Positions 30,588-49,134 of a stretch of DNA of 64,000 nucleotides are shown piece by piece. Both the position numbers and the translations under genes were made by a program. A model generated the notes under the pieces. The model made no database searches and had not been told where the DNA came from. It worked only from the letters and a program-made list of their open reading frames with translations. The first letter of the stretch is position 1. Each line of letters opens with the position of its first letter. Where the stretch lies: assembly GCF_004959855.1 (NCBI RefSeq), contig NZ_SPNT01000001.1, forward strand, positions 310,001 through 374,000. The letters are read 5' to 3'. Source of the DNA: Nitratireductor sp. XY-223 (GTDB taxonomy: Bacteria; Pseudomonadota; Alphaproteobacteria; Rhizobiales; Rhizobiaceae).

Positions 30588-31184
30588 ATGGCGAGCGACG
30601 GCGCGCAGGCTGAAAAATACAATCCCGGCAATGTCTCGGCGGATATCGGCCGTGACATCAGGGCGATTCGGCAATCGAAGGGCATGACCCTTACCGAGAT
30701 GGCGGTGAAGCTCGGCCGGTCGATCGGCTATCTGAGCCAGGTCGAGCGCGGTATTTCGGCGCTTTCGACCGAGGAGTTGCGGCAGGTCGCGGAACTGTTC
30801 GGCGTTCCGCTCAGTTGGTTCCTGGTCCTGTCTGACGTCTCGGAGGACGAGCGCGGTCACGTGACGCGGGCCGGACTGCGACGCATGAGCGGCGACAATG
30901 AGGGCGGACTGGCGGAAGAACTTCTGTCTCCGGACCTTTCCGGATCCTACGAGGTCATCCGAAGCGTTTTTGCGCCCGGCGCGAAACTCTCCAAGCCGAC
31001 GCTGCGCATGACGGAGGAGACCGCCTACATGGTTTCCGGCACGCTGGATATCCGCATCGGCAACAGGCAATTCACGGTCCGGGCCGGCGACAGCTTCCGC
31101 TTCAAGGAAGAAGAGTTCTACTGGGAGAACAACTCCAACGAACCGGCTGTCGCCATCTGGGTCGTCTCTCCGCCAATTTACTGA
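30588..31184 (+). CDS. XRE-family regulator with C-terminal cupin domain
   Basis: A 198-residue protein. The helix-turn-helix is about residues 20-75 (IRAIRQSKGMTLTEMAVKLG then SIGYLSQVERGISALS). The cupin ligand domain is about 120-195 (EETAYMVSGTLDIRIGN, ending AIWVVSPPIY). XRE-cupin proteins commonly control amine, polyamine or sarcosine genes. The start at 30588 is chosen over a TTG 12 bases upstream. The next gene, an FAD/GcvT dehydrogenase, starts 27 bases downstream, so the two are likely one transcript. Confidence 0.88.
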   Translation: MASDGAQAEKYNPGNVSADIGRDIRAIRQSKGMTLTEMAVKLGRSIGYLSQVERGISALSTEELRQVAELFGVPLSWFLVLSDVSEDERGHVTRAGLRRMSGDNEGGLAEELLSPDLSGSYEVIRSVFAPGAKLSKPTLRMTEETAYMVSGTLDIRIGNRQFTVRAGDSFRFKEEEFYWENNSNEPAVAIWVVSPPIY

Positions 31185-31211
31185 TTTAGACCTAAAGCCA
31201 GGGAGGTTCTT

Positions 31212-33647
31212 ATGGCTGAGCTCGCTTCCCATGCCCGTATTGTCATCATCGGTGGCGGCGCCGTCGGCGCCAGTTGCCTCTACCACCTGGCCATGGCCGG
31301 CGAGACCGACGTGCTGCTTATCGAGAAGAACGAGCTAACATCGGGTTCGACCTGGCACGCGGCCGGCAACACGCCGAACTTCTCGGGCAACCTCAACCTG
31401 ATGAAGCTGCAGAACTACGGCTCGCGCCTCTACAACCGGCTCGGCGACGAGGTCGGCTACCCCATCAACCGGCACATGACCGGCGCTGTGCGCCTGGCGC
31501 ACTCCAAGGAGCGGATGCAGGAGTTCGAGCACGTCGCGGCAATGGCCAATGCGGCGGGCATGGATATGGAAGTGCTTTCGGCGCAGGAGCTGAAGGGCAG
31601 GTATTATCCCTGGCTGGAGACACACGACCTGACGGGCGGCGCCTGGGATGCCGAGGACGGCGATATCGATCCGGCGCAGCTCACCCAGGCCTTTGCCAAG
31701 GGCGCGCGCGACAAGGGCGCCAAGGTGGCGCGGTTTACCAAGGTGACCGGGCTGTCGCAGCGCGCCGACGGGACGTGGGATGTGGCGACCGACAAGGGCA
31801 GCGTCCACGCGGAAATCGTCATCAACGCCGCCGGGTACTATGCCGACGAGATCGGCCGCATGGTCGGCCGCGACATCCCGATGGTGACCATGTCGCACCA
31901 GTACCTGGTCACCGAGGCGATCGGCGAACTGGAGGCACTGGACAAGAAGGTGCCGTTGCTGCGCGACCCGGACGACAGCTACTATCTGCGCCAGGAGGGC
32001 AACGGGCTGATCCTCGGGCCCTATGAATGGAAGGCGACGCCGCACTGGCTGAAGGAAGGCACCCCCGAGGATTTTGCCTTCCAGCTCTATCCGGACGACC
32101 TGGAACGCCTGGAATGGTATATCAACGCCGCGTGCGAGCGGGTGCCGATGCTGGCGACCGGCGGCGTGCAGAAAGTGATCAACGGGCCGATCCCCTACGC
32201 ACCGGACGGCCTGCCGCTGATCGGACCGGCCCCGGGGCTGACAAATTTCTTCGAGGCGTGCGTCTTCACCTTCGGCATCTGCCAGGCGGGCGGCGCCGGC
32301 AAGGTGATTGCGGAGTTCATCACAGAGGGCGAAACGGAGCTTGACCTGTGGATGGTCGATCCGCGCCGCTTCACCGATTACGCGACCAAGACCTACGCGA
32401 CGGTCAAGGCCATCGAGGTCTATCAGAACGAATACGCGATGCATCTGCCGCACCGGCCGTGGCCGGCGGGACGGCCGGCGAAGACCTCGCCGCTTTACGG
32501 CACAATGGCGCAGCACGGCGCCCAGTTCGGCGGTTTCGGCGGCTGGGAGCGGCCGCTCTGGTTCGCCCGCGAGGGCGACCGGCCGGAACCCGACATGACC
32601 CATGGACGGCCGCATTTCGACGATGCAATCGCCGCGGAGGTCCGCACAGTCGCCGAGCGGGCGGGCCTGCTCGACCTGACCGGCTTCACGCGCTTTGAGC
32701 TGTCGGGCCCGGGCGCCGTCGACTGGCTCGACGGCATGATCACCGGAACGTTGCCGCGGCTCGGGCGCGTGTCGCTGGCCTATTTCTGCGCCGAGAGCGG
32801 CCGGGTGATCACCGAACTGACAATCACACGCCTTGACGACGACCGATTCTGGCTGATCGGCCCGGCGGCGGGCTACTGGCATGATCGCGACTGGCTCAAA
32901 CAGCATATGCCGGACGACGGTTCCGTGACGCTCGAAGACATCACGGCCCGCTACGGCACGCTGGTGCTGGCGGGGCCGAAGTCGCGGGAAATCCTGTCGG
33001 CGATCGCCGACGAGGACCTGTCGAACGCCGCGCTGCCGTGGCTCTGTGCCGCGCCGATCACGATCGGCATGGCCCGGGGACTGGTGCTGCGGGTCAATTT
33101 CGTCGGCGAACTGGGCTATGAACTCCACATGCCGATGGAGACCATGCCGGCCGTGCACAAGCAATTGCTGGAGGCGGGCGAGGAACACGGGATCGGCCAT
33201 TTCGGCATGTATGCCATGGAGTCGATGCGCCTGGAAAAGGGCTACCGCGGCTGGAAACAGGACCTTTCGTCCGAATACACGCCGCTGACCTCGGCGGTCG
33301 ACCGCTTTGTCAAGCTGAACAAGGCGCAGTTCATCGGACGCGAGGCGCTGCTTAAACAAAGCCAAGAGGGCGTTGCCGAACGTTTCGTGGCCATGGAAGT
33401 GGAGCCGGGCGACGGCACGGAGGCCCCCTATGGCAGCCCCGTCTATGCCGGCGAGGCGCGCGTCGGGCTGATCACATCCGGCGGCTTCGGCCACCGGACC
33501 GGAAAGTCGATCGCGCTCGGCTATGTCGACGCCGCGCAAACGGCGGAAGGCACGCAGCTGCTGATCGACATCTACGGGGAAAAGCGCCCGGCGACCGTGG
33601 TTCCGGAGGTTATCTACGATCCGGACAACGAACGGCTCAGGGCATAA
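31212..33647 (+). CDS. FAD-dependent dehydrogenase fused to GcvT domain (dimethylglycine/sarcosine dehydrogenase-like), copy 1
   Basis: An 811-residue two-domain enzyme. The N-terminal DAO domain has VIIGGGAVGAS (residues 11-21) and SGSTWHAAG, whose His49 corresponds to the histidine that binds FAD covalently in dimethylglycine dehydrogenase. A GcvT-like folate domain covers about residues 430-800 (FELSGPGAVDWLDGMITG; FVGELGYELHMP). This class removes N-methyl groups oxidatively and passes formaldehyde to tetrahydrofolate. It follows the XRE-cupin regulator, with GGGAGG before the ATG, and ends at a strong terminator. The substrate is not certain: dimethylglycine, sarcosine or a methyltaurine. 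Confidence 0.88.
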   Translation: MAELASHARIVIIGGGAVGASCLYHLAMAGETDVLLIEKNELTSGSTWHAAGNTPNFSGNLNLMKLQNYGSRLYNRLGDEVGYPINRHMTGAVRLAHSKERMQEFEHVAAMANAAGMDMEVLSAQELKGRYYPWLETHDLTGGAWDAEDGDIDPAQLTQAFAKGARDKGAKVARFTKVTGLSQRADGTWDVATDKGSVHAEIVINAAGYYADEIGRMVGRDIPMVTMSHQYLVTEAIGELEALDKKVPLLRDPDDSYYLRQEGNGLILGPYEWKATPHWLKEGTPEDFAFQLYPDDLERLEWYINAACERVPMLATGGVQKVINGPIPYAPDGLPLIGPAPGLTNFFEACVFTFGICQAGGAGKVIAEFITEGETELDLWMVDPRRFTDYATKTYATVKAIEVYQNEYAMHLPHRPWPAGRPAKTSPLYGTMAQHGAQFGGFGGWERPLWFAREGDRPEPDMTHGRPHFDDAIAAEVRTVAERAGLLDLTGFTRFELSGPGAVDWLDGMITGTLPRLGRVSLAYFCAESGRVITELTITRLDDDRFWLIGPAAGYWHDRDWLKQHMPDDGSVTLEDITARYGTLVLAGPKSREILSAIADEDLSNAALPWLCAAPITIGMARGLVLRVNFVGELGYELHMPMETMPAVHKQLLEAGEEHGIGHFGMYAMESMRLEKGYRGWKQDLSSEYTPLTSAVDRFVKLNKAQFIGREALLKQSQEGVAERFVAMEVEPGDGTEAPYGSPVYAGEARVGLITSGGFGHRTGKSIALGYVDAAQTAEGTQLLIDIYGEKRPATVVPEVIYDPDNERLRA

Positions 33648-33662
33648 TTTCCGAAAGCAGAA

Positions 33663-33700: not shown

Positions 33701-33714
33701 TTGGTACCGGCTTG

Positions 33715-34581
33715 TCAGCCCTTGCCCTTCCAGGGGATCAGCCAGCGCTCGAGATAGCGCATGAAGATCTCGATGATGTAGCCGATGATGCCGATGATGA
33801 TGATGCCGATCACCACGGTGTCGGTCTGCAGGAAGTTCTTGGCGATCATGATCATCGAACCGACGCCCTTGTCGGCGGCGACGAGTTCGGCTGCAACGAC
33901 GGTTCCCCAGCACACGCCCATCGCAGTGCGCAGGCCGGTGAAGATCTCCGGCAGGGCATTCGGAAGGATCACATGGCGCAGGATCTGCATCTTGGAGGCG
34001 CCGAGCGAATAGGCGGCATGGACCTTCGAGATGCGGACGCTCGAGACACCGGAGCGCGCGGCGATCGTCATGATGAACAGCGAGGCGAGGAACAGCAGGA
34101 AGATCTTCGCCGTTTCGTCAATGCCGAACCACAGGATGATCAGCGGGATCAGGGCCAGCGGCGGGATCGGCCGCATGAACTCGACGATCGGGTCGAACAG
34201 TCCGCGCGCGGTCGAGGAAAGGCCCATGGCAAATCCCAGCGGGATGCCGACAACGGCGCCGTAGAGAACGCCCGACAGGACGCGGTAGACGCTGATGCCC
34301 ACATGCTCCCAAAGCGAGACGTTGCGGAATCCTTCTGTCACCAGAAGCACGATGCGGTCGAACGTTCCGCCGACGGTCGGCCAGTAGAATTCCTTGACCA
34401 GGCCGAGGCGCGACGACAGCACCCACAGCATGATGAGGCCGCAGACGATCAGGATGCTGTAGAAGCGGCCTGAGTTGACGGCACTGGCGTCGCCGAACTT
34501 CACAGTCTTCTGGCGCGTGAACGCGTTGTCGGCGAGCCCGAGCCAGATGGCGGCCTCGGAGGGTTCCCTTTTTTCTGACAT
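33715..34581 (-). CDS. tauC: TauC-like ABC permease
   Basis: A 288-residue inner-membrane permease with about six helices. The first is near residues 40-58 (ILIVCGLIMLWVLSSRLGLV), followed by the core (SVYRVLSGVLYGAVVGIPLG) and a coupling loop (AAYSLGASKMQILRHVILPN), all typical of TauC/SsuC. It starts 20 bases after the ATPase gene and lies in the order tauA-tauB-tauC. The substrate is taken to be taurine or an N-methylated taurine because TauR-like sites and xsc are close. Confidence 0.87.
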   Translation of the reverse strand: MSEKREPSEAAIWLGLADNAFTRQKTVKFGDASAVNSGRFYSILIVCGLIMLWVLSSRLGLVKEFYWPTVGGTFDRIVLLVTEGFRNVSLWEHVGISVYRVLSGVLYGAVVGIPLGFAMGLSSTARGLFDPIVEFMRPIPPLALIPLIILWFGIDETAKIFLLFLASLFIMTIAARSGVSSVRISKVHAAYSLGASKMQILRHVILPNALPEIFTGLRTAMGVCWGTVVAAELVAADKGVGSMIMIAKNFLQTDTVVIGIIIIGIIGYIIEIFMRYLERWLIPWKGKG

Positions 34582-34601: not shown

Positions 34602-35402
34602 CTAAGCGCCGACCTGGCCCATGATTTCCTCTTCCATTTCCCAGATCATGGAGAGGATCTCCTCGCGCTTTTCGACAAAGTCCGGTCCGGCCTTGATGTC
34701 GCGCGGGCTCTTGGTCATGCCTTCGTCGGCGAAGGGAAGCTCGTAGATTTTCTCGATGCGGCCGGGCCGCGGTGCCATGACGATCAGTTTTTCGCCCAGG
34801 AACAACGCTTCCTCGACCGAGTGTGTGATCAGGATGATCGTCTTGCCGGTTTCCTTCCAGAGCTTCAGAACGAGGCCCTGCATCTTTTCGCGGGTCAGCG
34901 CGTCGAGCGCACCGAGCGGCTCGTCCATGAGGATAACGTCCGGATCGTTGGCCAGGCAACGGGCGAGGGCGACGCGCTGCTGCATGCCGCCGGAAAGCTG
35001 GTAAACCGGCTTTTCGCCGAAGTCCTGCAGGCCGACGGTCTGCAGCAGGTGATCCACCTTTTCCTTGGTCTCGGATTTCGGCTTGCCCGCCATGTTCGGC
35101 CCGAAGGCGACATTCTGCGATACGGTCAGCCATTCGAAAAGCGCGCCCTGCTGGAACACCATGCCGCGTTCGGAGCCGGGGCCGGTAACCGTGTGATGGT
35201 TGAGGCGCACTTCCCCCGACGTCGGCGCAAGGAAGCCGGCAATGATATTGAGCAGCGTGGTCTTGCCGCAGCCGGACGGGCCGAGCACGGAGACGATTTC
35301 GCCTTCCTTGATGTCAAGGCTGACATCGTGAAGGGCATGGACCTCGCCGCCGCCGGGCAGCGTGAAGACCATGGATACTTTGTCGATTGCGATGCCGGTC
35401 AA
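34602..35402 (-). CDS. tauB: TauB-like ABC ATPase
   Basis: An ATPase of about 267 residues with Walker A GPSGCGKTT, signature LSGGMQQR and Walker B VILMDEPLGALD. I choose the TTG at 35402 (LTGIAIDKVSMVF) because a GGAGAGAG site lies just upstream and TauB proteins begin this way; an ATG at 35453 would sit inside the tauA-tauB spacer hairpin. It energises uptake through TauC. Confidence 0.85.
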   Translation of the reverse strand: MTGIAIDKVSMVFTLPGGGEVHALHDVSLDIKEGEIVSVLGPSGCGKTTLLNIIAGFLAPTSGEVRLNHHTVTGPGSERGMVFQQGALFEWLTVSQNVAFGPNMAGKPKSETKEKVDHLLQTVGLQDFGEKPVYQLSGGMQQRVALARCLANDPDVILMDEPLGALDALTREKMQGLVLKLWKETGKTIILITHSVEEALFLGEKLIVMAPRPGRIEKIYELPFADEGMTKSPRDIKAGPDFVEKREEILSMIWEMEEEIMGQVGA

Positions 35403-35437
35403 TTGCTCTCTCCATATTGGAAGTGGATGAGGCGAAG

Positions 35438-35459
35438 CGGGCGGTGCGAACACCGCCCG
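35438..35459 (-). other. Intercistronic UUCG hairpin between tauA and tauB
   Basis: Read on the minus strand, CGGGCGGTG - TTCG - CACCGCCCG is a perfect nine-base stem with a UUCG tetraloop, an exceptionally stable RNA fold. It lies 14 bases after the tauA stop. Hairpins here commonly protect the upstream binding-protein message and lower downstream expression. Confidence 0.75.
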
Positions 35460-35472
35460 TCCAATCGCGGCA

Positions 35473-36459
35473 TTATTTCAGGTAGTTGGGATCGACGAAC
35501 TGTGTGTAGTCGTCAAGCGCTTCGTCCATGCCGCCGGCGGCGACCATGACGTCCGCGACACCCTTGGTCATTTCCTGGACACCGCCGCCGAGCCAGTTGG
35601 CGCCTTTCTGATCTTCCGCACTCGGGAAGCCGAAGTTGGCCATGTAGTCCTTGGTGGCCGCAGCATCCATGCCGGCCGCCTTGGCGATGATCGGATAGGC
35701 GGCATCGGGATTGGCCTTGTAGGCTTCATTTGCGGCTTCCGTCACCGCCATGAATTTTTCGACCAGGTCGGGATGTTCCTTGGAGAACTCCTCGGTGACG
35801 CTGACGATGTCGAACGTGTTGATGCCGATGGCTTCCTGTTCGGCGCCTGTCATCAGCGGCTTGCCGAATTCACGCATGCGGTTGAGCGCGCCGCCGAAGC
35901 CGCAGGCCATGGCGACATCGCCGCGGGCGAGCGCGACAGCACCGTCCGGCGGGTTCATCTGGACGAGGTTGACCTTGTTCACGTCAACGCCGAGATGTTC
36001 CATGGTGCGGAGCATCTTGTAGTGGGTGACATTACCGATGGGCGTTGCCACCTTCTTGCCTTCGAGATCCTTGGCATTGTCCTTGGTGATGCCGGCATCG
36101 TTATGCACGATGCAAAGGTCGTTTTCAGCGTAGGTGACGGCGATCCCGACCAGCTTGAGCGGCGCGCCGGTGCTGACGCCGACCACGAACGGAACGAATC
36201 CCTGGCTGTAGGCGATCTGGACATCCCCGGACACCATGGCCTGGGTCATCTCGTTGCCGTTTCCGAAGGCGCGCCAGTTGACCTTGACGCCCAATTCCTT
36301 GTCGTAGGTCTCCTCCATCTGGGCAACCTGATTCGCCGTCGGCCATTCAAGGAAATAAGCGACTGTGATCTCGTCAAGCGCGAGAGCCGCGCCGGTGCCG
36401 CAGACAGCGGACATTACCGCCCCGCTCACCAGGGCAATCAGTTTCTTTTTGATGGACAT
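35473..36459 (-). CDS. tauA: TauA-like periplasmic binding protein
   Basis: A 328-residue secreted receptor. The start at 36459 gives MSIKKKLIALVSGAVMSAVC as signal peptide with cleavage near ALALDE; a longer frame from 36492 is less likely. The mature start DEITVAYFLEWPTANQVAQM and the block IAYSQGFVPFVVGVSTGAPL resemble TauA. It is divergent from mttB and would bind taurine or a methylated taurine. Confidence 0.86.
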   Translation of the reverse strand: MSIKKKLIALVSGAVMSAVCGTGAALALDEITVAYFLEWPTANQVAQMEETYDKELGVKVNWRAFGNGNEMTQAMVSGDVQIAYSQGFVPFVVGVSTGAPLKLVGIAVTYAENDLCIVHNDAGITKDNAKDLEGKKVATPIGNVTHYKMLRTMEHLGVDVNKVNLVQMNPPDGAVALARGDVAMACGFGGALNRMREFGKPLMTGAEQEAIGINTFDIVSVTEEFSKEHPDLVEKFMAVTEAANEAYKANPDAAYPIIAKAAGMDAAATKDYMANFGFPSAEDQKGANWLGGGVQEMTKGVADVMVAAGGMDEALDDYTQFVDPNYLK

Positions 36460-36670
36460 GTTTTTCCCCTTGTTCGGACTTAGGTACATCATGGTGTCGG
36501 ATTGTTCCGACTTATTGATTCAATCGGGACATCGGGGCGAAATCCTGTCGCCAACTGCTTTGCCTGCCGGCTATCCAGCAGCGCGGTCCTTTCGAGGCAA
36601 CGCGTCAATGCTCCCGCCACTATTAGGCAATTATTGGGGTGGCCAAAGGTAGTGCCAGCCATGACTCCTG

Positions 36671-36762: not shown

Positions 36763-36859
36763 AGTGTCGTGGGACGGTTCCTCATGTCCGGTCTTGTCCG
36801 TGGGACGGGCCAGATGACAGCGTCCGAATTGAGCGAGGCCGGTTGGAGGAGTGAAGCCG

Positions 36860-38443
36860 ATGTCGAAGCTTGTTGACGAGGTGGAGGTGCCGGGTGTGGA
36901 ACGGGAAAGACGCCGTTCTGGAGGACGGGAAGCTCGGCGGGCAATGCGCGCCGCACCACTGGACAAATCGGCACGACCGGTCAGACCCGGCATGCCGTCG
37001 GGCAATTACCGTCCGCTAACCCAGAACGATATGGAACGCATTCACGAGGCGGCGCTGACGATCCTCGAGGATATCGGCATGGGACAGCCGATCGAAAGCT
37101 GCATCGAAGTGTGCACGGCGGCCGGCGCGACCTACGGCGAGGACGGACGATTGCATTTCCCGCGTGCGCTGGTCATGGAAACGGTCCGCGATGCCGCCCG
37201 GGACCTGACGATCTGCGCTCAGGATCCGGCGCACGACATGACGCTGTCAGGTCAGAAAGTCCATTTCGGCACCGCCGGTGCGGCGGTTCACATCGTCGAC
37301 GTGGAAAAGCGTGAGTACCGCGAATCCGTCCTGAGCGATCTCTACGATGCCGCACGCATCGTCGAGACGCTGGACAATGTGCATTTTTTCCAAAGGCCGC
37401 TGGTCGCGCGCGACATACCCGATCCGGTGGATCTCGACATAAACACCCTTTATGCGTGCCTGCTCGGCACCACGAAGCACGTCGGCACAAGCTTTTCCGT
37501 AGGCGAGAGCGTCGGACCCTGCCTGGAACTCCTGCACATGATCGCCGGCGGTGAGGAGGCGTTCCGTGCTCGTCCGTTCGTCTCCAATTCCAACTGCTTC
37601 GTCGTGCCGCCACTGCGGTTTGCCGAAGACGCCTGCCATGTGCTCGAACAGTGTGTGCGCGGCGGCATGCCGGTACTTTTGTTGTCCGCCGGGCAGGCGG
37701 GCGCGACGGCGCCTGCGGCAATTGCCGGGGCAGTGGTGCAGGCGGTCGCCGAGGTGCTGGCCGGGCTGGTCTACGTCAACGCGATTTCGAAGGGTCATCC
37801 GGCGATCTTCGGCACCTGGCCGTTCGTGTCCGATCTGCGCACCGGCGCCATGTCGGGCGGATCCGGCGAGCAGGCCCTGCTTTCGGCCGCCTGTGCGCAG
37901 ATGGCGCATTTCTACGATCTTCCCGGCGGCGCCGCGGCCGGCATCGCCGATTCCAAGATGCCGGACGTGCAGGCAGGATATGAGAAGGGCATCACCAATG
38001 TGATGGCCGGACTGTCCGGCCTCAACATGGTCTATGAATCGGCCGGAATGCATGCCTCGCTTCTCGGATTTTCACTGGAGAGCCTGATCATCGACAACGA
38101 CATGCTGGGCCAGTGTCTGCGTTGCGTCCGCGGCGTCGAGGTGAATGACGAAACGCTCTCGCTCGCCTCGATCAAGGATGTGTGCACGAACGGACCGGGC
38201 CATTATCTCGGTCACGAGCAGACGCTGGCGCTGATGCAGACCGAATACATCTACCCGGTGATCGGCGACCGCACGAGCCCCAAGGAGTGGGTGGAAAAGG
38301 GCAGGCCCGATATTGTCGAGACGGCGATCGCGGAAAAGAACCGCATCCTGTCGTCGGTCTTTCCGCGGCATATCTCGGCGGAACTCGACAGTGCCGTCCG
38401 CAAGCGTTTCGACATCCGTCTGGCGGCGGCGGGCGACAGGTAG
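36860..38443 (+). CDS. MttB-family (trimethylamine methyltransferase superfamily) protein without pyrrolysine
   Basis: A 527-residue methyltransferase of the MttB superfamily. Family blocks include IHEAALTILEDIGMG near the start and GSGEQALLSAACAQMAHFYD with DSKMPDVQAGYEKG in the second half. The frame has no internal TAG, so it is a non-pyrrolysine member like glycine betaine methyltransferase MtgB, which transfers a methyl group from a quaternary amine to a corrinoid protein. No corrinoid protein or reactivase gene is in the window. The start at 36860 (GGAGG ten bases before) is preferred to GTG 36851. Taurine genes on both sides suggest a methylated sulfonate substrate. Confidence 0.87.
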   Translation: MSKLVDEVEVPGVERERRRSGGREARRAMRAAPLDKSARPVRPGMPSGNYRPLTQNDMERIHEAALTILEDIGMGQPIESCIEVCTAAGATYGEDGRLHFPRALVMETVRDAARDLTICAQDPAHDMTLSGQKVHFGTAGAAVHIVDVEKREYRESVLSDLYDAARIVETLDNVHFFQRPLVARDIPDPVDLDINTLYACLLGTTKHVGTSFSVGESVGPCLELLHMIAGGEEAFRARPFVSNSNCFVVPPLRFAEDACHVLEQCVRGGMPVLLLSAGQAGATAPAAIAGAVVQAVAEVLAGLVYVNAISKGHPAIFGTWPFVSDLRTGAMSGGSGEQALLSAACAQMAHFYDLPGGAAAGIADSKMPDVQAGYEKGITNVMAGLSGLNMVYESAGMHASLLGFSLESLIIDNDMLGQCLRCVRGVEVNDETLSLASIKDVCTNGPGHYLGHEQTLALMQTEYIYPVIGDRTSPKEWVEKGRPDIVETAIAEKNRILSSVFPRHISAELDSAVRKRFDIRLAAAGDR

Positions 38444-38509
38444 AAATTTGCAATAAACCACCGCAGGCTGCATGGTCCGGGCGATTGATGCGGCGTGGAG
38501 GCGATTCGG

Positions 38510-39391
38510 ATGCTCGATGGCGCGATGACGGTCTGGTTCGTTCTGACCGCGTGCAGCATCGCCTTTGTCGTCTACGATTCACTTTACAACGGAGTGACGA
38601 GCTGGGTTCAGCGCGCCGCATGGATCCTGGTCACCGCCTATACCGGGCCCGTCGGCCTGTTCTTCTACCTGCTGGCCTGCCGCAGGCCGTTCACCGGCGG
38701 TCACGACCGCTACACGGCTGCGGGCTGGAAGCAGGCGGTCAACAGCGAAATGCACTGCCTGGCAGGCGACGCGACCGGCATCCTTGCCGCGGCGCTCGTC
38801 GTTTCGTCGCTGGGGCTGGCAAACGGATGGGATATCACGGTTGAATATCTCGCCGGCTTCGTCTGCGGGCTTTTCATCTTCCAGGCGCTGATGATGATGG
38901 GCATGTATCAGGGAAATTACTTGCTGGCCGTGCGCAAGACCTTCTTCGCCGAAACGGTCTCCATGAACTTCGTGATGGCGGGAATGATCCCGACCATGGT
39001 CGTCCTGGCCCATCTTTGGGAAGGTTCGGAATCGCCGGTCAACGCAGCCTTCTGGTTCCGCATGAGCCTTGCCAGCCTCGTCGGCGGGATTGTTGCCTAT
39101 CCGATCAATTACTGGCTGGTTTCACGGCACCTCAAGCATGGTTGCATGACGTTGCCGGGCGCTGACGGGCCTGCGGGCGGCCTCGGGCACAGGTCTCCGG
39201 AACCCGCCACACACGGGCACATGGAAGGCATGCACGGCCAAGTGCATCAGGGGCACGAAATGAGCGATCACGGCGCCATGGAAATGGGCAGCCTGAGCGG
39301 CGCAGCATCTACGTCCTGGGTGGTGTTTTCGTTTGCCGTACTGTTCGCGGCGCTGGTCGGCACCGGCTATTTTGTGCCCATCCGATTCTGA
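38510..39391 (+). CDS. DUF4396 membrane protein with His/Met-rich loop
   Basis: A 293-residue protein with about six membrane helices. It matches DUF4396 (WKQAVNSEMHCLAGDATGIL, GMYQGNYLLAVRKTFFAET). A loop at about residues 212-268 is rich in His, Met and Gly (HGHMEGMHGQVHQGHEMSDH), as in copper-handling proteins. The ATG at 38510 has GGAGG eight bases upstream; a GTG at 38495 would leave that site inside the gene. It follows mttB by 66 bases on the same strand. The function is unknown. Confidence 0.84.
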   Translation: MLDGAMTVWFVLTACSIAFVVYDSLYNGVTSWVQRAAWILVTAYTGPVGLFFYLLACRRPFTGGHDRYTAAGWKQAVNSEMHCLAGDATGILAAALVVSSLGLANGWDITVEYLAGFVCGLFIFQALMMMGMYQGNYLLAVRKTFFAETVSMNFVMAGMIPTMVVLAHLWEGSESPVNAAFWFRMSLASLVGGIVAYPINYWLVSRHLKHGCMTLPGADGPAGGLGHRSPEPATHGHMEGMHGQVHQGHEMSDHGAMEMGSLSGAASTSWVVFSFAVLFAALVGTGYFVPIRF

Positions 39392-41330: not shown

Positions 41331-42809
41331 TCAGCCGGGCGCTATCGTGCGCACAATTCCGGCCAGACGCTCGATGCCCGGTTCGATGCGTTCCTCGGCA
41401 ATCGACGAGAAGCCGAGCCGGAAATAATTGCGATGGTTTTCGGGATCGGAGAAATAAATGTCGCCCGGTTCGATGACGATGCCCTCCTCGAGCGCCCGGC
41501 TGGCAAGCGCGTTGCAATCCAGCCATTGCGGTCCCTTCACCCAGTAGGAGGTGCCGCCGAACCCGGGCGTTTCGGCCCAGCCGGGGAAGTGCCTGTCGAG
41601 CGCTTCGCCCATGGCGATCCAGCGGTTGCGGTAGCTGCGATGCAGCCTGCCGATGAGCGTATCGTGGTGACCGAGCGCGAGAAACAGGGCCACGACGCCC
41701 TGGTTGTTGCCCGGCGGGTGGCGCAGCATCAGCCGCCGCAGGGCGCGTGCTTCGCGGATGAGCGCGGCGGGTGCCACCATGAAGCCCATGCGCAGGCCCG
41801 GCATCAGCGATTTCGACAGGCTGCCGACATAGAGCACGCGCTGACCCTGATCGAGCGATTTCAGCGCCGGCGTGGGTTCGCCCTCGTAATTGGTCTCGAA
41901 CTCGTAGTCGTCCTCGATGATCAGGCTGTTGTTGTCGACCGCCCATTCAAGCAGCGCCTTGCGCCGGTCGAGGCTCATCGTCACGTTGGTCGGGTACTGG
42001 TGGCTCGGCGTGACGAACACCAGTTCCGATCCCATGAGCTCCCTGCCCAGGGTAATGCCCTCTGAATCCACCGGGACGTTGCGGATGTGTTCGGTCCGCA
42101 GTTGAAAGATGTTGCGTATGTCCCGGTAGCCGGGATCCTCGATCGCAACGGTCGTGTCGCGTTTCACCAGCAGGCTGGAAAGCAGGTAGAGCGCATTCTG
42201 GGCGCCGAGCGTTACCAGGATCTCATCCGGATTGGCGAGAATCCCGCGGCGCGTCAGGATGCGCTGGCGAATCTGTTCGATCAGAATCCGGTCGTCCTCG
42301 GCAAAATGGTCGTTGGTCCAGGCATCAAGCCATTTACGTCCCATGGACTGGCGCATGCAGTCGCGCCACGCGGCGATCGGAAACAGGGCCGCGTCGGCCT
42401 GCCCGTAGATGAAGGGATAGGGGTAGTCGTGCCAGTTGTCCGGCTTTTCGATATTCGTCTGGCCGCTCGGCTGGACCCGGAAACGGCCGTCCCAGTCGGG
42501 TTCCGGCCGGTCCAGTTGCTCGGCCGGCTGCGGCGCCATGCTCGCCATCGTCCCGTCATGGATGTCGGGCGAGACATAGAATCCCGAACGCTCCCGGGCG
42601 ATAAGGTAACCGTCCGATGCCAGTGCCTGATAGGCCAGCATGACCGTGTTGCGCGAGACCTTCAGCCGCTTTGCCATCGCTCGCGTCGAGGGGATCGGTG
42701 CACCGACCGGCAACTGACCGGACAACATCGCCGACACCAGCATTTCGCGGATCTGGGTCTGGAGCGTCGTCATCTCCATACGTTCGACGTGGAAAAGAGA
42801 ATTGCGCAT
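41331..42809 (-). CDS. tauR: TauR, MocR/GntR-family PLP-dependent regulator of taurine genes
   Basis: A 492-residue MocR protein. The winged helix is at about residues 12-80 (LQTQIREMLVSAMLSGQLPV; VSRNTVMLAYQALASDGYLI) and the rest is an aminotransferase-like domain with the PLP lysine in SLSKSLMPGLRMG (about residue 329). TauR activates taurine uptake and breakdown genes when taurine is present. The start at 42809 follows GGGAGCG; a longer frame from 42863 would run through a TauR-like motif. It lies behind xsc on the same strand and is divergent from pta. Confidence 0.9.
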   Translation of the reverse strand: MRNSLFHVERMEMTTLQTQIREMLVSAMLSGQLPVGAPIPSTRAMAKRLKVSRNTVMLAYQALASDGYLIARERSGFYVSPDIHDGTMASMAPQPAEQLDRPEPDWDGRFRVQPSGQTNIEKPDNWHDYPYPFIYGQADAALFPIAAWRDCMRQSMGRKWLDAWTNDHFAEDDRILIEQIRQRILTRRGILANPDEILVTLGAQNALYLLSSLLVKRDTTVAIEDPGYRDIRNIFQLRTEHIRNVPVDSEGITLGRELMGSELVFVTPSHQYPTNVTMSLDRRKALLEWAVDNNSLIIEDDYEFETNYEGEPTPALKSLDQGQRVLYVGSLSKSLMPGLRMGFMVAPAALIREARALRRLMLRHPPGNNQGVVALFLALGHHDTLIGRLHRSYRNRWIAMGEALDRHFPGWAETPGFGGTSYWVKGPQWLDCNALASRALEEGIVIEPGDIYFSDPENHRNYFRLGFSSIAEERIEPGIERLAGIVRTIAPG

Positions 42810-42851
42810 GCCGCGCTCCCGTTTGCGATCGGTGACCTTCCGATCTGACTG

Positions 42852-42863
42852 AACTGGCCCCAT
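42852..42863 (+). promoter_or_regulatory. TauR-like motif before tauR
   Basis: AACTGGCCCCAT differs at one base from the copy before xsc. It lies 43 bases upstream of the tauR start, so it could mediate autoregulation. Confidence 0.5.
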
Positions 42864-42952: not shown

Positions 42953-43116
42953 TGGTTGGCGGAGGCCACGCGCCCTCCCGGCAAACTATTGAATTACAAC
43001 GATGAAACGAGCTGTAGCGATCTCGAAACCGATAAACCGCCGCATCGGAACGGTGCGCTCGAAAACGCAGCGTGGGACCAGTCCTGTGTCAGAATACGCC
43101 GAAGAACGGGTCCGCT

Positions 43117-44028
43117 ATGATCAGTGAGGCGCCCGTTGAATTGCCGCACGGGCTGATGCGCCGGGCGGAGAGCGGCAAGGCTGCGAGGGCCGTTATCGCC
43201 GGGGCCGTCAGCGAAGTCGTTCTCGAAAGCGTCCGCTTGTCCATGCAGGCCGGATTGGTGGATCCTGTCCTTGTCGGGGAGCCGGAGGCCATCCGCAGCG
43301 CTGCCCCGGACATCGTGGACCGCGATGTCGAGGTGATTGCGGCCAGCGGAGACGATGAGCTCGCGCGGGCCGCTGCCTTACGCGCGTCGCGCGGCGATGT
43401 CGACATGGTGGTCAAGGGCCATGTGCACACGGACGCCTTCATGGCGGCCCTGTTGACCGAAGAGGCGGGTATCCGCCAGCCGGGCCGGCGCATGACCCAC
43501 TGTTTTCACCTGACCCTGCCGGGCCACGAGCGCCCGCTGATCATCACCGACGGCGCCGTCAATGTCGCGCCCGACCTTCAGACCAAAAAGGCGGCGATAC
43601 TCAACGCGATCAACCTGGCGCGGGCGGTCGGTATCGGCCGACCCAAGGTCGCGATCCTCTCGGCCACCGAATCGCCGCTACCGCAGATGCCCTCAAGCAT
43701 GGAGGCTATGGCGTTGAGCGAATGGGCGCTGGAGCATGTCGCCGATGCCGATGTGTTCGGCCCGCTTGCCTTCGACAACGCCGTATCCATGGCCGCCGCC
43801 CATCTGAAGGGCGTTGACCACCCGGTGGCGGGCGATGCTGATATCCTGCTGGTGCCGAGCATCGAGGTGGGCAACGCACTCTTCAAGATGATGGTCTATT
43901 TCAACTCCGCCTGCGCCGCCGGCGTGGTCCTTGGCGGTCGCATTCCGATTGTCCTCACCAGCCGGGCCGATTCGCCGCAATCGCGGCTGGCTTCCATCGC
44001 GCTCGCGAAACTTTCCGTCGCCGTCTGA
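43117..44028 (+). CDS. pta: Phosphate acetyltransferase (Pta/butyryltransferase family)
   Basis: A 303-residue short-form phosphotransacetylase. Family blocks include VRLSMQAGLVDPVLVGEPEA, DMVVKGHVHTDAFM and a C-terminal SADIL-like receptor region (ADILLVPSIEVGNALFKMM). It converts acetyl phosphate, the Xsc product, to acetyl-CoA, as in other taurine pathways with xsc-pta. The start at 43117 is chosen because the protein family begins here; the ribosome site is weak (GAAGAACGG). Confidence 0.9.
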   Translation: MISEAPVELPHGLMRRAESGKAARAVIAGAVSEVVLESVRLSMQAGLVDPVLVGEPEAIRSAAPDIVDRDVEVIAASGDDELARAAALRASRGDVDMVVKGHVHTDAFMAALLTEEAGIRQPGRRMTHCFHLTLPGHERPLIITDGAVNVAPDLQTKKAAILNAINLARAVGIGRPKVAILSATESPLPQMPSSMEAMALSEWALEHVADADVFGPLAFDNAVSMAAAHLKGVDHPVAGDADILLVPSIEVGNALFKMMVYFNSACAAGVVLGGRIPIVLTSRADSPQSRLASIALAKLSVAV

Positions 44029-44169: not shown

Positions 44170-46641
44170 ATGGCCGAATTTCCCCAGCACACACGCGTCC
44201 TGATCATCGGCGGCGGCGTCGTTGGCTGTTCCGTTGCCTATCATCTGGCCCATCTCGGCTGGAGCGATGTGGTGCTGGCCGAACGCAAGCAGCTGACCAG
44301 CGGAACCACATGGCACGCGGCCGGTCTGATCGCGCAGTTGCGGGCGACGATCAACATGACGCGGCTCGCCAAATACAGCCAGGAGCTCTACGGCGGGCTC
44401 GAGGCGGAAACGGGCATTGCGACCGGGTTCAAGCGCAACGGTTCGCTCGCGGTGGCGCTGAGCGAAGACCGGATGGAGGAGTTCCTGCGCAACGCCTCGA
44501 TGGCCAAGACTCATGGCGTGGAGGTGAATGTCGTTACCGCGAACGACTGCGCGGAGATGTATCCCTACCTCAATACCGACGGTGTTGTCGGCGGCCTGCA
44601 TATTCCGCTCGACGGGCAGGGCGATCCGGCCAATATCGCCATGGCGCTTGCCCGCGGCGCGCGCAACAAGGGCGTGAAGATCTTCGAAAACACGAAGGTC
44701 GAGGCGATCCATGTCAAGGACGGTAGGGCGATCGGTGCGCGCACCGACAAGGGCGAAATCACCGCTGACATCGTCGTCAACTGTGCCGGCATGTGGGGGC
44801 ACGAGGTTGGCCGCATGGCAGGCGTCAATGTTCCGCTGCACGCATGCGAGCATTTTTATATCCTGACGGAAGCCGTGTCGGGACTTCCCGGCAACCTGCC
44901 GGTGCTGCGGGTGCCCGACGAATGCGCCTACTACAAGGAAGACGCGGGCAAAATCCTCCTCGGGGCGTTCGAGCCGGTGTCGAAACCCTGGGGCATGGAC
45001 GGCATCCCGGACGACTTCTGTTTCGACGAGCTGCCGGAGGATTTCGACCACTTCCAGCCGGTGTTGGAGATGGCTGTCGGGCGCCTGCCGCTGCTTGAAA
45101 GCGCCGGCATCCACACGTTCTTCAACGGGCCGGAGAGTTTTACACCCGACGACCGCTACCTGCTCGGGCCGTCGCCGGAAGTTGCGAATTTCTTTGTCGC
45201 CGCCGGCTTCAACTCGATCGGTATCCAGTCGGCCGGCGGTGCCGGCAAGGCGCTCGCCGAGTGGATTGTCGAGGGAGAGCCGCCCTTCGATCTGTGGGAT
45301 GTCGACATACGCCGCATGGAGCCGTTCCAGGGCAACCGCACATACCTGAAGAACCGGGTGAGCGAAACGCTGGGCCTGCTTTACGCCGATCACTACCCGT
45401 ACCGGCAATACGAATCGGCCCGCGATGTCCGCCACACACCGTTTCACGAAAAGATGGCCGAGCGGGGCGCCTGCTTCGGCGAGACGGCGGGCTGGGAGAG
45501 GCCCCACTGGTTCGTGCCCGCCGATGATCTCAAGAACGGCGTCAAACCCGAATACGAATATAGCTGGAAGCGGCAGAACTGGTTCGCCTATGCGGCCGGC
45601 GAGCACAAGGCGGTTCGCGAGAGCGCCGGCGCATTCGATCTTTCGGCCTTCGGAAAGTTCCTGGTCGAGGGTCCGGACGCCATGGATGTGTTGCAGCGCA
45701 TCTGCGCCAACGATGTCGATGTCGAGCCGGGCCGCATCGTCTACACGCAATGGCTCAACGCGCGCGGCGGCATCGAAGCGGACCTGACGGTAACGCGGCT
45801 GGCGGCGAACCGCTTCATCGTGGTGACTGGCGCTGCCGTGGCAAACCGCGATTTCACCTGGCTGACGCGTCACATACCGGACGAGGCGCGATGCATCGCC
45901 GTCGATGTGACCAGCGGCGAAGCGGTGCTCGGCGTGATGGGTCCGAATGCCAGAAGGATCCTGGAGAAGGTGACGCCCGCCGATCTCTCTAACGAGGCGT
46001 TCCCGTTCGGCTCCTGCCAGACGATCGAGCTGGGCATGGCAACGGTGCGCGCGCACCGCATCACCTATGTCGGCGAACTCGGCTGGGAGCTCTATGTCTC
46101 GGCCGATATGGCCCGCCATGTCTTCGACACGGTGATGGCAGCAGGCGAGGGCGAGGGGCTGCGCCTTGCGGGCATGCATGTGCTGGACAGCTGCCGCATG
46201 GAAAAGGCCTTTCGGCATTTCGGGCACGATATCACCGACGAGGACCATGTCCTCGAGGCCGGTCTCGGCTTCGCGGTCAGGACCGAAAAACCTGACGGCC
46301 GGTTCGGGCCGTTTATCGGCCGCGACGCCGTGCTCGAGCGCCGGCAGGCCGGTCTGACCAAGCGGCTGGTTCAGTTCCAGCTCGTCGATCCGGAACCGCT
46401 GCTGTATCACGCCGAGCCGATCGTGCGCGACGGTGAGATTGTCGGCTATCTGACATCCGGCAATTACGGGCATCACCTGGGCGGCGCGCTGGGCCTGGGC
46501 TATGTGCCGGCGCGCGACGGAGAAAGCGGCAAGGACATGCTTGCTTCGCGCTACGAGATCGAAGTCGCCGGAAAAAGATGCGAGGCGATCGCCAGCCTCA
46601 AGCCGCTCTACGATCCGAAAAGCGAGCGGATCAAACTGTAG
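44170..46641 (+). CDS. FAD-dependent dehydrogenase fused to GcvT domain (dimethylglycine dehydrogenase-like), copy 2
   Basis: An 823-residue enzyme with the same layout as the gene at 31212. FAD site LIIGGGVVGCS is at residues 11-21. SGTTWHAAGL places His49 as the probable covalent FAD ligand. The folate-binding GcvT domain lies in about residues 435-815 (VEGPDAMDVLQRICAND; YVGELGWELYVS). It should demethylate a secondary or tertiary amine. The two paralogues differ after the histidine (LIAQLRATIN here, NTPNFSGNLN in the other), so they probably act on different substrates. Confidence 0.9.
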   Translation: MAEFPQHTRVLIIGGGVVGCSVAYHLAHLGWSDVVLAERKQLTSGTTWHAAGLIAQLRATINMTRLAKYSQELYGGLEAETGIATGFKRNGSLAVALSEDRMEEFLRNASMAKTHGVEVNVVTANDCAEMYPYLNTDGVVGGLHIPLDGQGDPANIAMALARGARNKGVKIFENTKVEAIHVKDGRAIGARTDKGEITADIVVNCAGMWGHEVGRMAGVNVPLHACEHFYILTEAVSGLPGNLPVLRVPDECAYYKEDAGKILLGAFEPVSKPWGMDGIPDDFCFDELPEDFDHFQPVLEMAVGRLPLLESAGIHTFFNGPESFTPDDRYLLGPSPEVANFFVAAGFNSIGIQSAGGAGKALAEWIVEGEPPFDLWDVDIRRMEPFQGNRTYLKNRVSETLGLLYADHYPYRQYESARDVRHTPFHEKMAERGACFGETAGWERPHWFVPADDLKNGVKPEYEYSWKRQNWFAYAAGEHKAVRESAGAFDLSAFGKFLVEGPDAMDVLQRICANDVDVEPGRIVYTQWLNARGGIEADLTVTRLAANRFIVVTGAAVANRDFTWLTRHIPDEARCIAVDVTSGEAVLGVMGPNARRILEKVTPADLSNEAFPFGSCQTIELGMATVRAHRITYVGELGWELYVSADMARHVFDTVMAAGEGEGLRLAGMHVLDSCRMEKAFRHFGHDITDEDHVLEAGLGFAVRTEKPDGRFGPFIGRDAVLERRQAGLTKRLVQFQLVDPEPLLYHAEPIVRDGEIVGYLTSGNYGHHLGGALGLGYVPARDGESGKDMLASRYEIEVAGKRCEAIASLKPLYDPKSERIKL

Positions 46642-46654
46642 CTGTCCGCACCCA

Positions 46655-47060: not shown

Positions 47061-47210
47061 GCTTTCAGCGCCCTTTGTTCAGTTATACGGACTATGTCGT
47101 TCGATGCCCATTTCAAATACGAGCGCATGGCACTGATAAAGCGAAAAGCAGTGCCACAGAGCGCATAGCCGCCTCACAGAATCAGTCCGCCAAAAAGCAG
47201 AGGCTAAACC

Positions 47211-47972
47211 ATGGACACATCAAACTCTTCATACACCGCAGTGACACCGGAATTCATGGCGTCGTATGATCACTGCACGCCAAGCGGCCATCTCCACCCT
47301 AGATGCAAGCTGAACAGGCTTGCAAACATCGGGTTGGATTGCCGGGCGGAGGTCAGCCCCGAGATCGATCTCGACGCGCTGACAGATCGCAGCTACACCC
47401 ATCTTTGTGAAACCAGCGATGATGGCTGGCTGATCGGAGGCGGTGACACCACAAAACTGGTGCGTCCGGACACTGCCCACGCTGAGATCTGGCGCATTGG
47501 TCCAGGCAAGCGCGAGGAGGGTGGATTGCCACTCGATCTGGTCGAGAAAGTGATGCGTGCCGTCAAATTTGCCCCGATTCGCGTCAAACCGCTCCGCGTT
47601 AACCTGACGCCGGCGAACGAGCTGGAGCTTCTGCTCTCGTACGAACCGGACTCGGTTATTGGAAAGCTGTTCGGCATTTTCAGTACGGTGTTGGCATGCC
47701 CTTGCGGCGACTACGGCAATCCGTTCCACATTACGATGGTGAGGGGCGTAAAATTCCGTTCCGAAGATGCGCAGAAGGCTTATTTCGCTCGGGTCGATCC
47801 GATTGTTGAGAAATGGAAGGCCGATTTTCCGGAGGGCGTCATCTTTAATGATGGCGGAGTGGATCTGTTTGAAAACCGCGAGAAGATCATAGCGCATGTG
47901 TCGCCCAGCATTGTGAGCGATGTTGCGGCGGACATAGAGCATTTGAAAACGTTGGTGACTGAAGGCACGTAG
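47211..47972 (+). CDS. Hypothetical protein, no family recognised
   Basis: A 253-residue soluble protein without signal peptide or membrane helix. A GAGG site precedes the ATG. Notable features are LHPRCKLNRLANIGLDCRAE near the N-terminus and a central CPCGDYGNPFHITMVRGVKF, where two cysteines precede a His-x-Thr. A single HxT is seen, so a two-histidine phosphodiesterase fold is only a thought. Composition is less GC-rich than its neighbours and it sits between a pseudogene and a DAO-type oxidase, 13 bases upstream of the latter. Function unknown. Confidence 0.7.
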   Translation: MDTSNSSYTAVTPEFMASYDHCTPSGHLHPRCKLNRLANIGLDCRAEVSPEIDLDALTDRSYTHLCETSDDGWLIGGGDTTKLVRPDTAHAEIWRIGPGKREEGGLPLDLVEKVMRAVKFAPIRVKPLRVNLTPANELELLLSYEPDSVIGKLFGIFSTVLACPCGDYGNPFHITMVRGVKFRSEDAQKAYFARVDPIVEKWKADFPEGVIFNDGGVDLFENREKIIAHVSPSIVSDVAADIEHLKTLVTEGT

Positions 47973-47985
47973 GCGAAGCGTAACC

Positions 47986-49134
47986 ATGACAGCCAACTTT
48001 GACATTGTCGTCATCGGCGCCGGCATTGCGGGCGCGTCGGTCGCCTACGAGCTGGCAGGCGATGCCCGCGTTGTCGTCATCGAGATGGAAAGCCATCCCG
48101 GCTACCACACGACGGGGCGCTCGGCAGCGATCTTCTCCGAGGCTTACGGGCCGGCGCCGATCCGGTGCCTGACCAGCCAATCGCGGGCGTTTTACGAGAA
48201 TCCCCCGGATGTCTTCGGACAGCATCCCCTGCTGACGTCGCGCGGGGTGCTTTATGCGGCGAGAGACGATCAGCTCGAGAGCCTCGAGGCGCTTCGGTGC
48301 AACCTGTCCGGCAATGCGGATATGCGAATGGTCGATGCCGGCGACATCGGTCGGTTGTCCCCGCTGCTGCGGCCCGGTTACGCCGTAGCCGGCCTTTACG
48401 AGGAACAGGCCAGCGATATCGACGTGAATGCACTTCACCACGGGTACCTGCGCGGCCTGAGGCGGCGCGGTGGCGAGGTGATCGTCGATTCGCAAGTGTA
48501 TTCGGCAGAACGCAGGAACGGCGTGTGGATCCTTTCCACGCGGCGTGGCACCGTGGAGGCGCCCGTCGTCGTCAACGCGGCCGGTGCGTGGGCCGATGAA
48601 CTGGCGGCGAAACTCGGCGCGAACCCCGCCGGACTTGTCCCCAAGCGCCGGACGGCTCTCGTCATCGCCGCACCGGAGGGCGCGAACCCGGACAGGTGGG
48701 CCGCGACGGTGGACGTGGATGAGCAGTTCTATCTCAAACCGGACGCCGGCCGATTGCTGATTTCTCCGGCGGATGAGACTCCGTCGGCTCCATGCGACGC
48801 GCAGCCGGAGGAGATGGATATCGCAATCTGCATCGATCGCATCCAGCGCGCGTTCAGTGTCGACGTGAAACGGGTGGAAAACTGCTGGGCAGGCCTGCGG
48901 ACCTTCGCCGAAGATCACGCGCCGGTTTGCGGTTACGACCCGGCGGTGGAGGGTTTTTTCTGGCTTGCCGGACAGGGCGGCTACGGAATCCAGTCCGCAC
49001 CGGGCCTGTCACAGCTGGCGGCATGCCTGGTGAGCGGCAAGTCCTTGCCGGACGGTCTGGAACAGCGCGGTTTCAGGGTGGCAGATGTATCGCCGCTTCG
49101 TCTGCGCCGGCGGACGGAAGTCGTCGAATCCTGA
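47986..49134 (+). CDS. DAO-family FAD-dependent amine/amino acid dehydrogenase
   Basis: A 382-residue flavoprotein with FAD motif IVVIGAGIAGASVAYEL (residues 7-23), a mid-protein NAAGAWADELA block and a C-terminal FFWLAGQGGYGIQSAPGLSQ. It resembles D-arginine dehydrogenase/D-amino acid dehydrogenase type enzymes. No taurine:pyruvate aminotransferase or tauXY gene is in the window, so this could supply the deamination or a demethylation step of the sulfonate route, but that is inference. It may be co-transcribed with the unknown gene before it. Confidence 0.82.
   Translation: MTANFDIVVIGAGIAGASVAYELAGDARVVVIEMESHPGYHTTGRSAAIFSEAYGPAPIRCLTSQSRAFYENPPDVFGQHPLLTSRGVLYAARDDQLESLEALRCNLSGNADMRMVDAGDIGRLSPLLRPGYAVAGLYEEQASDIDVNALHHGYLRGLRRRGGEVIVDSQVYSAERRNGVWILSTRRGTVEAPVVVNAAGAWADELAAKLGANPAGLVPKRRTALVIAAPEGANPDRWAATVDVDEQFYLKPDAGRLLISPADETPSAPCDAQPEEMDIAICIDRIQRAFSVDVKRVENCWAGLRTFAEDHAPVCGYDPAVEGFFWLAGQGGYGIQSAPGLSQLAACLVSGKSLPDGLEQRGFRVADVSPLRLRRRTEVVES

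Follow-up and report, generated by a model that had tools for sequence, protein, structure and literature searches.

A 64,000-nucleotide stretch of the Nitratireductor sp. XY-223 genome (contig NZ_SPNT01000001.1, positions 310,001 to 374,000; G000:C11:310001-374000 in our numbering), referred to here as the window, carries a gene island that is probably a catabolic module for N-methylated taurine, with taurine betaine (N,N,N-trimethyltaurine) as its most likely substrate. The genome is 6.19 Mb in length and 98.7% complete. An earlier note on this DNA had named an MttB-family protein without pyrrolysine, two flavoenzymes resembling dimethylglycine dehydrogenase (DMGDH; here DMG1 and DMG2), a DAO-type oxidase, a tauABC-type importer, xsc, tauR, and pta, and had read the set as an island for the breakdown of N-methylated taurine. 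Open reading frames (ORFs) and profile scans confirmed each of these genes as an open frame at the position given (Table 1). Because of the conservation of the gene set and the co-occurrence of its MttB clade with sulfoacetaldehyde acetyltransferase (Xsc), N-methylated taurine is the best substrate class, ahead of glycine betaine. We infer the exact substrate, the specificity of the importer, the order of demethylation, and the deaminating step. As a whole, the earlier proposal gained from conservation, the tie to Xsc, and the presence of a separate glycine betaine locus in the host, while a TauA specific for the methylated substrate and DAO as the deaminase were either unsupported or left undecided.

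Conservation of the gene set across genomes had been named beforehand as a check. The island MttB was used as a query against the GTDB genome collection, and the best 80 of 510 relatives were kept, giving, with the window, 81 neighbourhoods referred to as clade loci. The ORFs of these neighbourhoods were clustered from a simple codon-usage caller, so that counts of ORF clusters are affected by contig ends and caller misses; as single missing genes may be such misses, the claims made here rest on tblastn rows. The same island was found in five other genomes (L009-L013), all metagenome-assembled genomes (MAGs) or uncultured, three of them titled Rhizobiaceae and one Rhizobiaceae group. The genes for TauABC, MttB, Xsc, the TauR-like regulator, and DMG2 are present in all six islands, and those for DMG1 and the XRE regulator in five, with neither found inside the L010 stretch. 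DAO was found in L009, L010, and L013, and Pta in L010 only, among the five related islands. In L011 and L012, DMG2 is followed directly by a gene of the salicylyl-CoA type, and thus DAO is not always present. Neither the DUF4396 protein (by tblastn) nor the 253-aa protein had a match in L009-L013. Since the set recurs in five genomes whose MttB proteins are 83–86% identical to that of the window, the gene grouping is more than chance, and the gene set is confirmed as real and conserved.

The core of the island, consisting of the two DMGDH-like enzymes and MttB, is widespread and adjoins taurine genes in three further arrangements. By ORF clusters, DMG2 occurs in 47 and DMG1 in 43 of the 81 clade loci (window included), and the order XRE-DMG1-DMG2-MttB or DMG1-DMG2-MttB is kept in SAR116, Hoeflea, Sinorhizobium, and some Rhodobacteraceae. 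Loci of Mesorhizobium and Aminobacter hold MttB behind a MocR gene, with no DMG gene within the stretch; their MocR proteins are 45–50% identical to that of the window, an identity insufficient to prove TauR. One of the arrangements lies on a single 25-kb contig (L065, evidently from genome G109), where MttB-tauC-tauB-tauA and DMG1-DMG2-Pta-Xsc, in that order, are separated by 8 kb holding genes for SBP_bac_3, helicase, RecJ, homoserine dehydrogenase, and racemase. In another (L082, L037, and L047), XRE-DMG1-DMG2-mttB lies beside DmsABC-type (soeCBA-like) genes and Pta, with Xsc on other contigs. The two small subunits encoded there are 44–65% identical to those of a DmsABC-type operon adjoining xsc in Azospirillum, which is here called SoeABC. 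L082 additionally possesses tauAB and a gene 72% identical to the host's Tpa-like aminotransferase L120 (see below), and L037 and L047 a TauR-like gene. In L073, the core is followed by Pta-Xsc-TauR-like, and in L048 a TauC-like gene precedes MttB. On a 65-row MttB tree, the hand-assigned label "linked" requires 5 changes, this being a quick tree whose long branches are placed unsurely.

Some features of these loci stand apart from the argument. The TauC-like permease of G109 (L128 3930-5858) has 642 aa, roughly double what is usual, and its transport domain comes last. In Hoeflea, a gene of the homocysteine S-methyltransferase family (L046 6467-7501) lies between DMG1 and DMG2, as does a member of the same ORF cluster in L040 and L083, and it is possible that the Hoeflea gene provides a direct methyl acceptor link. 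In SAR116 (L029 and relatives), a conserved block of four gene types is found to the right of MttB, encoding a 3-hydroxyacyl-CoA dehydrogenase/hydratase, an alpha/beta hydrolase, a pyridoxal phosphate enzyme of Cys/Met metabolism, and a metallo-beta-lactamase fold protein. Finally, the Ruegeria pomeroyi megaplasmid (L091; NC_006569.1, 337771-359222) carries at 8953-19249 a parallel cassette of a LysR regulator, an MttB protein (49% identical to that of the island), a class III aminotransferase with best matches of GSA type under cut-off, two DMGDH-like enzymes, and a thiamine pyrophosphate (TPP) enzyme whose best profile is Xsc, under cut-off (401 of 620 bits). This cassette looks like the same logic applied to another methylated amine.

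The tie between the MttB clade and Xsc was examined across 385 genomes of the class, using as queries the island MttB, Xsc, and, as a control, the host's MtgB-type paralogue L001. The clade was taken as matches of at least 58% identity plus G071 (two part hits, 62% and 65%), with those at 54% or less dropped, and Xsc as matches of at least 74% identity including a part hit in G112, with 11 genomes holding Xsc-like proteins of 45–49% identity excluded. The control set comprised all 75 genomes in which L001 was matched at E 1e-150, their best matches being 50–100% identical. With counting rules fixed after the output had been seen, and with Fisher values that ignore relatedness, the clade was found in 36 genomes, Xsc in 35, and both in 24 of the 385, where 3.3 were expected. 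Among the control genomes, Xsc occurred in 24 of 36 with the clade versus 4 of 39 without it, or 27 of 36 versus 9 of 39 when the Xsc-like proteins of 45–49% were included. Xsc therefore tracks the island's MttB clade and not merely richness in MttB proteins. Moreover, in 14 clade genomes hand-selected to span the neighbourhood types, Xsc was present at 73–85% identity in 13, the exception being a 1.7-Mb MAG.

By its gene content, the host possesses a glycine betaine type locus apart from the island, and the island MttB is probably not its glycine betaine enzyme. The single PF02607 corrinoid protein of the genome lies 110 kb from the island among mtgB/D/E-like genes, and it is MtgC-like but under the curated cut-off (208 bits, cut-off 370). 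Adjoining its gene is that of paralogue L001, which among solved structures is closest to 4yyc (955 bits) and to glycine betaine methyltransferase entries at 402–404 bits (9yce, 402). The neighbourhood also encodes a RACo-type protein, a pterin-binding MtgD-like protein, an MTHFR-like protein, a homocysteine S-methyltransferase (MtgE-like), and an OpuAC binding protein, with a further DMGDH-like protein, 43% identical to DMG1, some 10 kb away. In its gene content this locus resembles the MtgBCDE system of Ruegeria pomeroyi (PMC12478193). A methyl acceptor outside the island goes beyond what the earlier note had considered. All 36 clade genomes likewise hold an MtgB-type relative (35 at 62% identity or more, G233 at 50%). 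In anaerobes, several quaternary amine methyltransferases of the MttB superfamily share one corrinoid protein (PMC12478193), and one corrinoid protein in the host together with an MtgB-type relative in 36 of 36 clade genomes is what would be expected if the island MttB borrows the MtgC hub.

Several results weigh against an assignment to N-methylated taurine. The best solved relative of both DMG1 (585 bits) and DMG2 (501 bits) is dimethylglycine dehydrogenase, and in L073 choline transporter genes and a choline dehydrogenase gene separate the core from xsc. The contrast in Xsc weakens when counted by family code (11 of 18 versus 4 of 19, p = 0.015), and 12 of the 36 clade genomes have no true Xsc, three of these having an Xsc-like enzyme at 45–46% and two being less than 85% complete. 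Of the clade genomes, 35 were placed, and in only two of them, the host and G109, does the clade lie within 25 kb of xsc; for the control MttB type the number is likewise two, out of 75 (G079 and G310). The MocR regulator passes the NCBIfam PdxR model (359 bits, cut-off 320), and the island's TauA type is found near xsc in ten sample genomes of which three (G289, G346, and G297) are without the clade. Physical linkage to xsc, at 2 of 35 clade versus 2 of 75 control genomes, was rejected as a statistical test; it is too rare in the 385 genomes, and co-occurrence was therefore used in its place. In some clade-holding genomes, MttB proteins of other types are encoded within 25 kb of xsc, at L136 13284 (G117), G079:C80:464, and G310:C4:77029.

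It is conceivable that MttB, DMG1, and DMG2 demethylate glycine betaine, dimethylglycine, and sarcosine, with the taurine genes as independent neighbours. The nearest solved relatives, glycine betaine methyltransferase for MttB (204 bits) and dimethylglycine dehydrogenase, would suit such a role, as would the choline ABC transporter genes (TIGR03414 and TIGR03415) and choline dehydrogenase (TIGR01810) beside the core of L073, all above cut-off. However, the host's other locus already holds an MtgB type far closer to 9yce, together with MtgC/D/E-like, OpuAC, and DMGDH-like proteins, and Xsc tracks the clade even though every clade genome has the MtgB type; we thus consider this explanation unlikely. 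Less likely still is that the core acts on another betaine in most genomes (gamma-butyrobetaine, beta-alanine betaine, or similar) and that its co-occurrence with Xsc reflects a shared osmolyte-eating lifestyle. The twelve clade genomes without true Xsc are in keeping with it, as are Hoeflea-type loci, in which an aldehyde dehydrogenase gene (best profile BADH, at 452 bits against a cut-off of 669) comes after the core together with a 3-hydroxyisobutyrate dehydrogenase family gene, and Sinorhizobium loci with an aminobutyraldehyde dehydrogenase nearby. Lifestyle, however, does not easily explain why, among genomes that all have the MtgB type, most of those with the clade hold Xsc and few of the others do, and both the window island and G109 possess xsc but no aldehyde dehydrogenase among their identified genes (the G109 scan covering all but some small and edge frames). 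As a separate observation, the Xsc-like enzymes of 45–46% in clade genomes without true Xsc (G163, G176, and G272) are TPP enzymes and perhaps represent a second enzyme for sulfoacetaldehyde or a related aldehyde.

Among eight PF06253 proteins in the genome, the island MttB is the lowest-scoring. Its frame has no internal stop, and Ile365 aligns with Pyl334 of MttB, a site occupied by I in 24 and M in 32 of 56 clade rows. On the strength of its PF06253 score and Ile365, it is a member of the non-pyrrolysine MttB superfamily, in agreement with the earlier note, and we propose that it is a quaternary amine:corrinoid methyltransferase. The protein nonetheless falls outside MtgB, as the island has no corrinoid gene and L001 is closer to 9yce (402 versus 204 bits). 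Residue conservation, like the MttB tree, was assessed on 55 of the 80 kept loci, hand-chosen to drop near copies. In the 56 clade rows, 43 positions with a charged, polar, aromatic, or Cys residue are conserved at 97% or more and absent from the seven paralogues, with two of them being gaps in all paralogues; they include Arg182, Arg187, His210, Gln282, Trp323, and Glu396. As a guess, the conserved arginines could hold the sulfonate. These kept residues speak against the island degrading only di- or monomethyltaurine or taurine, with MttB having another job or being a leftover, and so does the presence of MttB in every arrangement seen (MttB having been the search query). Bacterial degradation of N-methyltaurine with release of methylamine is reportedly known, DMG1 and DMG2 could by themselves act on tertiary and secondary amines, and the TauA type fits taurine clusters, yet we regard this explanation as very improbable.

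On the taurine side, Xsc is the sole protein of the genome above the TIGR03457 cut-off and is 81% identical to that of a Shinella taurine cluster (L101). The Pta-type protein, named as pta by the earlier note, has the PTA_PTB domain and exceeds its PRK08190 cut-off, but it is unmatched by the Shinella Pta query at E 1e-4. The regulator called tauR has the MocR architecture and lies in the expected place, but given its score above the PdxR cut-off, "TauR" is a label by position and by 43% identity to Shinella TauR. Likewise, a three-gene importer is present as claimed, but all three proteins score under the curated taurine cut-offs (Table 1), and TauA shares 28% identity with its Shinella counterpart. 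Taurine is contacted in E. coli TauA by Gln30, Glu106, Thr132, and Asp205 (PMC6906117); in the island protein the first three are Phe, Asp, and Val, respectively, and Asp205 is unchanged. The Phe and Asp205 are common to 20 of 20 aligned rows of this TauA type (window included; L065 and L128 being one contig), including L148 and L149, two xsc clusters from genomes without the MttB clade. The TauA type is therefore not diagnostic, and the Phe and Val replacements, also found in L148 and L149, were dropped as proof of a methylated ligand; specificity of this TauA for methylated taurine is either unsupported or undecided. At the genome level the tie is strong, with this TauA type and the clade together in 16 of 23 genomes (2.2 expected).

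The deaminating step was sought both within and outside the island. Shinella queries did not find TauX, TauY, or TauZ in the window, and genome-wide there is no TauY orthologue (best match to Shinella TauY, 32%). The island DAO is 27% identical to Shinella TauY over part of its length, and 30% identical in the genome-wide comparison, and, being neither conserved nor TauY-like, it was rejected as a deaminase of taurine or N-methyltaurine. All 13 class III aminotransferases of the genome were profile-scanned for Tpa. One of them, L120 (C33:485538-486797), scored 464 bits against PRK07678 (cut-off 488, partial frame), a model named only "aminotransferase" and presumably tied to Tpa. L120 is 85% identical to a gene directly before xsc in G257 and 70–74% identical to genes of taurine clusters in L082, G117, G022, and G154, and on these identities it is likely the genome's Tpa, although it lies apart from the island. 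Tpa can be substituted by an omega-amino acid aminotransferase (PMC12625764), and the AptA-type omega-aminotransferase at 2398-3810 of the window could be such an alternative. Direct cleavage of N-methyltaurine by DMG1, DMG2, or DAO is also possible.

In the proposed pathway, TauABC would import the N-methylated taurine, and MttB would transfer one methyl group to the host's single MtgC-like corrinoid protein. By analogy with Ruegeria MtgBCD, the MtgD-like enzyme would pass the methyl from the corrinoid to tetrahydrofolate or, with the MtgE-like enzyme, to homocysteine; the MtgC, MtgD, and MtgE families are all represented in the host genome. DMG2 and DMG1, judging by their family, would take off the second and third methyls as methylene-tetrahydrofolate. 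Transamination of the resulting taurine would fall to the Tpa-like aminotransferase (C33:485.5 kb), or else an island flavoenzyme may cleave the last N-methyl intermediate directly. Sulfoacetaldehyde would then be converted by Xsc and Pta, in keeping with the established roles of these families and the identity of Xsc, to acetyl-CoA and sulfite.

Parts of this scheme have counterparts in known systems. The MtgBCDE system was demonstrated for glycine betaine demethylation in R. pomeroyi (PMC12478193), and the island resembles it in having a pyrrolysine-less enzyme of the MttB superfamily, MtgC-, MtgD-, MtgE-, and RACo-like genes in the host, and DMGDH-type flavoenzymes for the later methyls. 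In contrast to that system, the island MttB forms a separate clade and is linked to taurine genes, with no dedicated corrinoid gene close by. Like MtgB, MtpB, MtcB, and MtyB of anaerobes, it belongs to the MttB superfamily, but it differs in its alphaproteobacterial clade, its own conserved residues, and its sulfonate context. In Sinorhizobium meliloti, TauR, TauC, and TauY are needed for taurine use (PMC4254191). The tauR-tauABC-tauXY-xsc-tauZ-pta cluster of Shinella shares Xsc, a TauR-like regulator, a TauABC-type importer, and a Pta-type enzyme with the island, whereas MttB and two DMGDH-like enzymes are found in the island, and it is set apart by its TauA and by the absence of window matches to Shinella TauX, TauY, and TauZ. 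For the Tpa-Xsc-Pta route, known for instance from sponge symbionts (PMC12625764), the host genome likewise holds Xsc together with Pta-type and Tpa-like enzymes; here, the Tpa-like gene is unlinked and demethylases stand in front. Finally, a bacterial N-methyltaurine dehydrogenase route, reportedly described by Weinitschke and colleagues in 2006, is said to feed N-methylated taurine into sulfoacetaldehyde and Xsc as proposed for the island; that route releases methylamine, whereas the one proposed here begins with a quaternary substrate and demethylates it step by step.

The island is preceded by a hormone-sensitive-lipase-type gene and a ferredoxin-reductase-like gene and followed by a salicylyl-CoA 5-hydroxylase-type gene (PRK08255, 1312 bits). 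The genome encodes 11 FAO_M proteins, counting DMG1 and DMG2. Elsewhere in the window, at 2398-10217, the omega-aminotransferase AptA is followed by frames that by sight resemble amidase, hydantoinase, and ABC transporter genes and may make up a cluster for pyrimidine/beta-alanine catabolism.

Table 1. Genes of the island, with window coordinates, strand, and profile evidence or proposed role.
Feature	Position	Strand	Evidence and remarks
XRE-family regulator, C-terminal cupin	30588..31184	+	HTH_3 and Cupin_2; precedes DMG1 here and in many other loci
DMG1, DMGDH-like	31212..33647	+	DAO, FAO_M, GCV_T, and GCV_T_C; proposed demethylase of tertiary/secondary N-methyltaurine
TauC-like permease	33715..34581	-	PRK10160, 246 bits (cut-off 342)
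TauB-like ATPase	34602..35453	-	PRK11248, 293 bits (cut-off 357)
TauA-like binding protein	35473..36492	-	Type distinct from E. coli/Shinella TauA; TIGR01729, 182 bits (cut-off 304)
MttB-superfamily methyltransferase without pyrrolysine	36851..38443	+	PF06253, 381 bits (cut-off 25); proposed taurine betaine:corrinoid methyltransferase
DUF4396 membrane protein	38495..39391	+	Domain scan
Xsc, sulfoacetaldehyde acetyltransferase	39434..41209	-	TIGR03457, 970 bits (cut-off 676)
MocR-family regulator, TauR-like	41331..42863	-	GntR and aminotransferase I/II domains
Pta-type phosphotransacylase (acetyl phosphate to acetyl-CoA)	43072..44028	+	PTA_PTB; PRK08190, 284 bits (cut-off 282)
DMG2, DMGDH-like	44170..46641	+	Same DAO/FAO_M/GCV_T/GCV_T_C fusion as DMG1; proposed dimethyltaurine demethylase
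253-aa protein	47211..47972	+	Adjoins DAO; no match in Pfam and NCBIfam scans
DAO-family oxidase	47986..49134	+	Accessory at most; missing from two of six islands

Algae and invertebrates use taurine betaine as an osmolyte, which would make a genetic marker of its degradation valuable. Judged by title and abstract opening, none of the matches listed in searches of open PubMed Central papers pointed to a gene cluster for this breakdown. Up to seven pfam06253 genes occur per genome, and the extra ones have been suggested to serve other methylated substrates by the MtgBCD route (PMC12478193). That 2025 work, whose main text does not contain the word "taurine", left open the substrates of the extra MttB homologues in marine and soil bacteria, and the locus described here offers one MttB clade a specific, testable substrate. 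The recurring combinations of demethylase and taurine genes suggest a so far undescribed route for the use of N-methylated taurine. Tentatively, and at somewhat less than an even chance, taurine betaine demethylation may be a widespread and unrecognised nutrient route of Alphaproteobacteria, combining a dedicated MttB clade, an MtgC/MtgD methionine-linked hub, and two DMGDH-like enzymes. If so, the route would span rhizobia, Hoeflea, Rhodobacteraceae, and relatives of SAR116, turning a sulfonate betaine into taurine, sulfite, and one-carbon units, and the window would be a rare case with most of the route in one island. A single pathway would then link the cycling of methyl (one-carbon) groups, nitrogen, and sulfonate sulfur.

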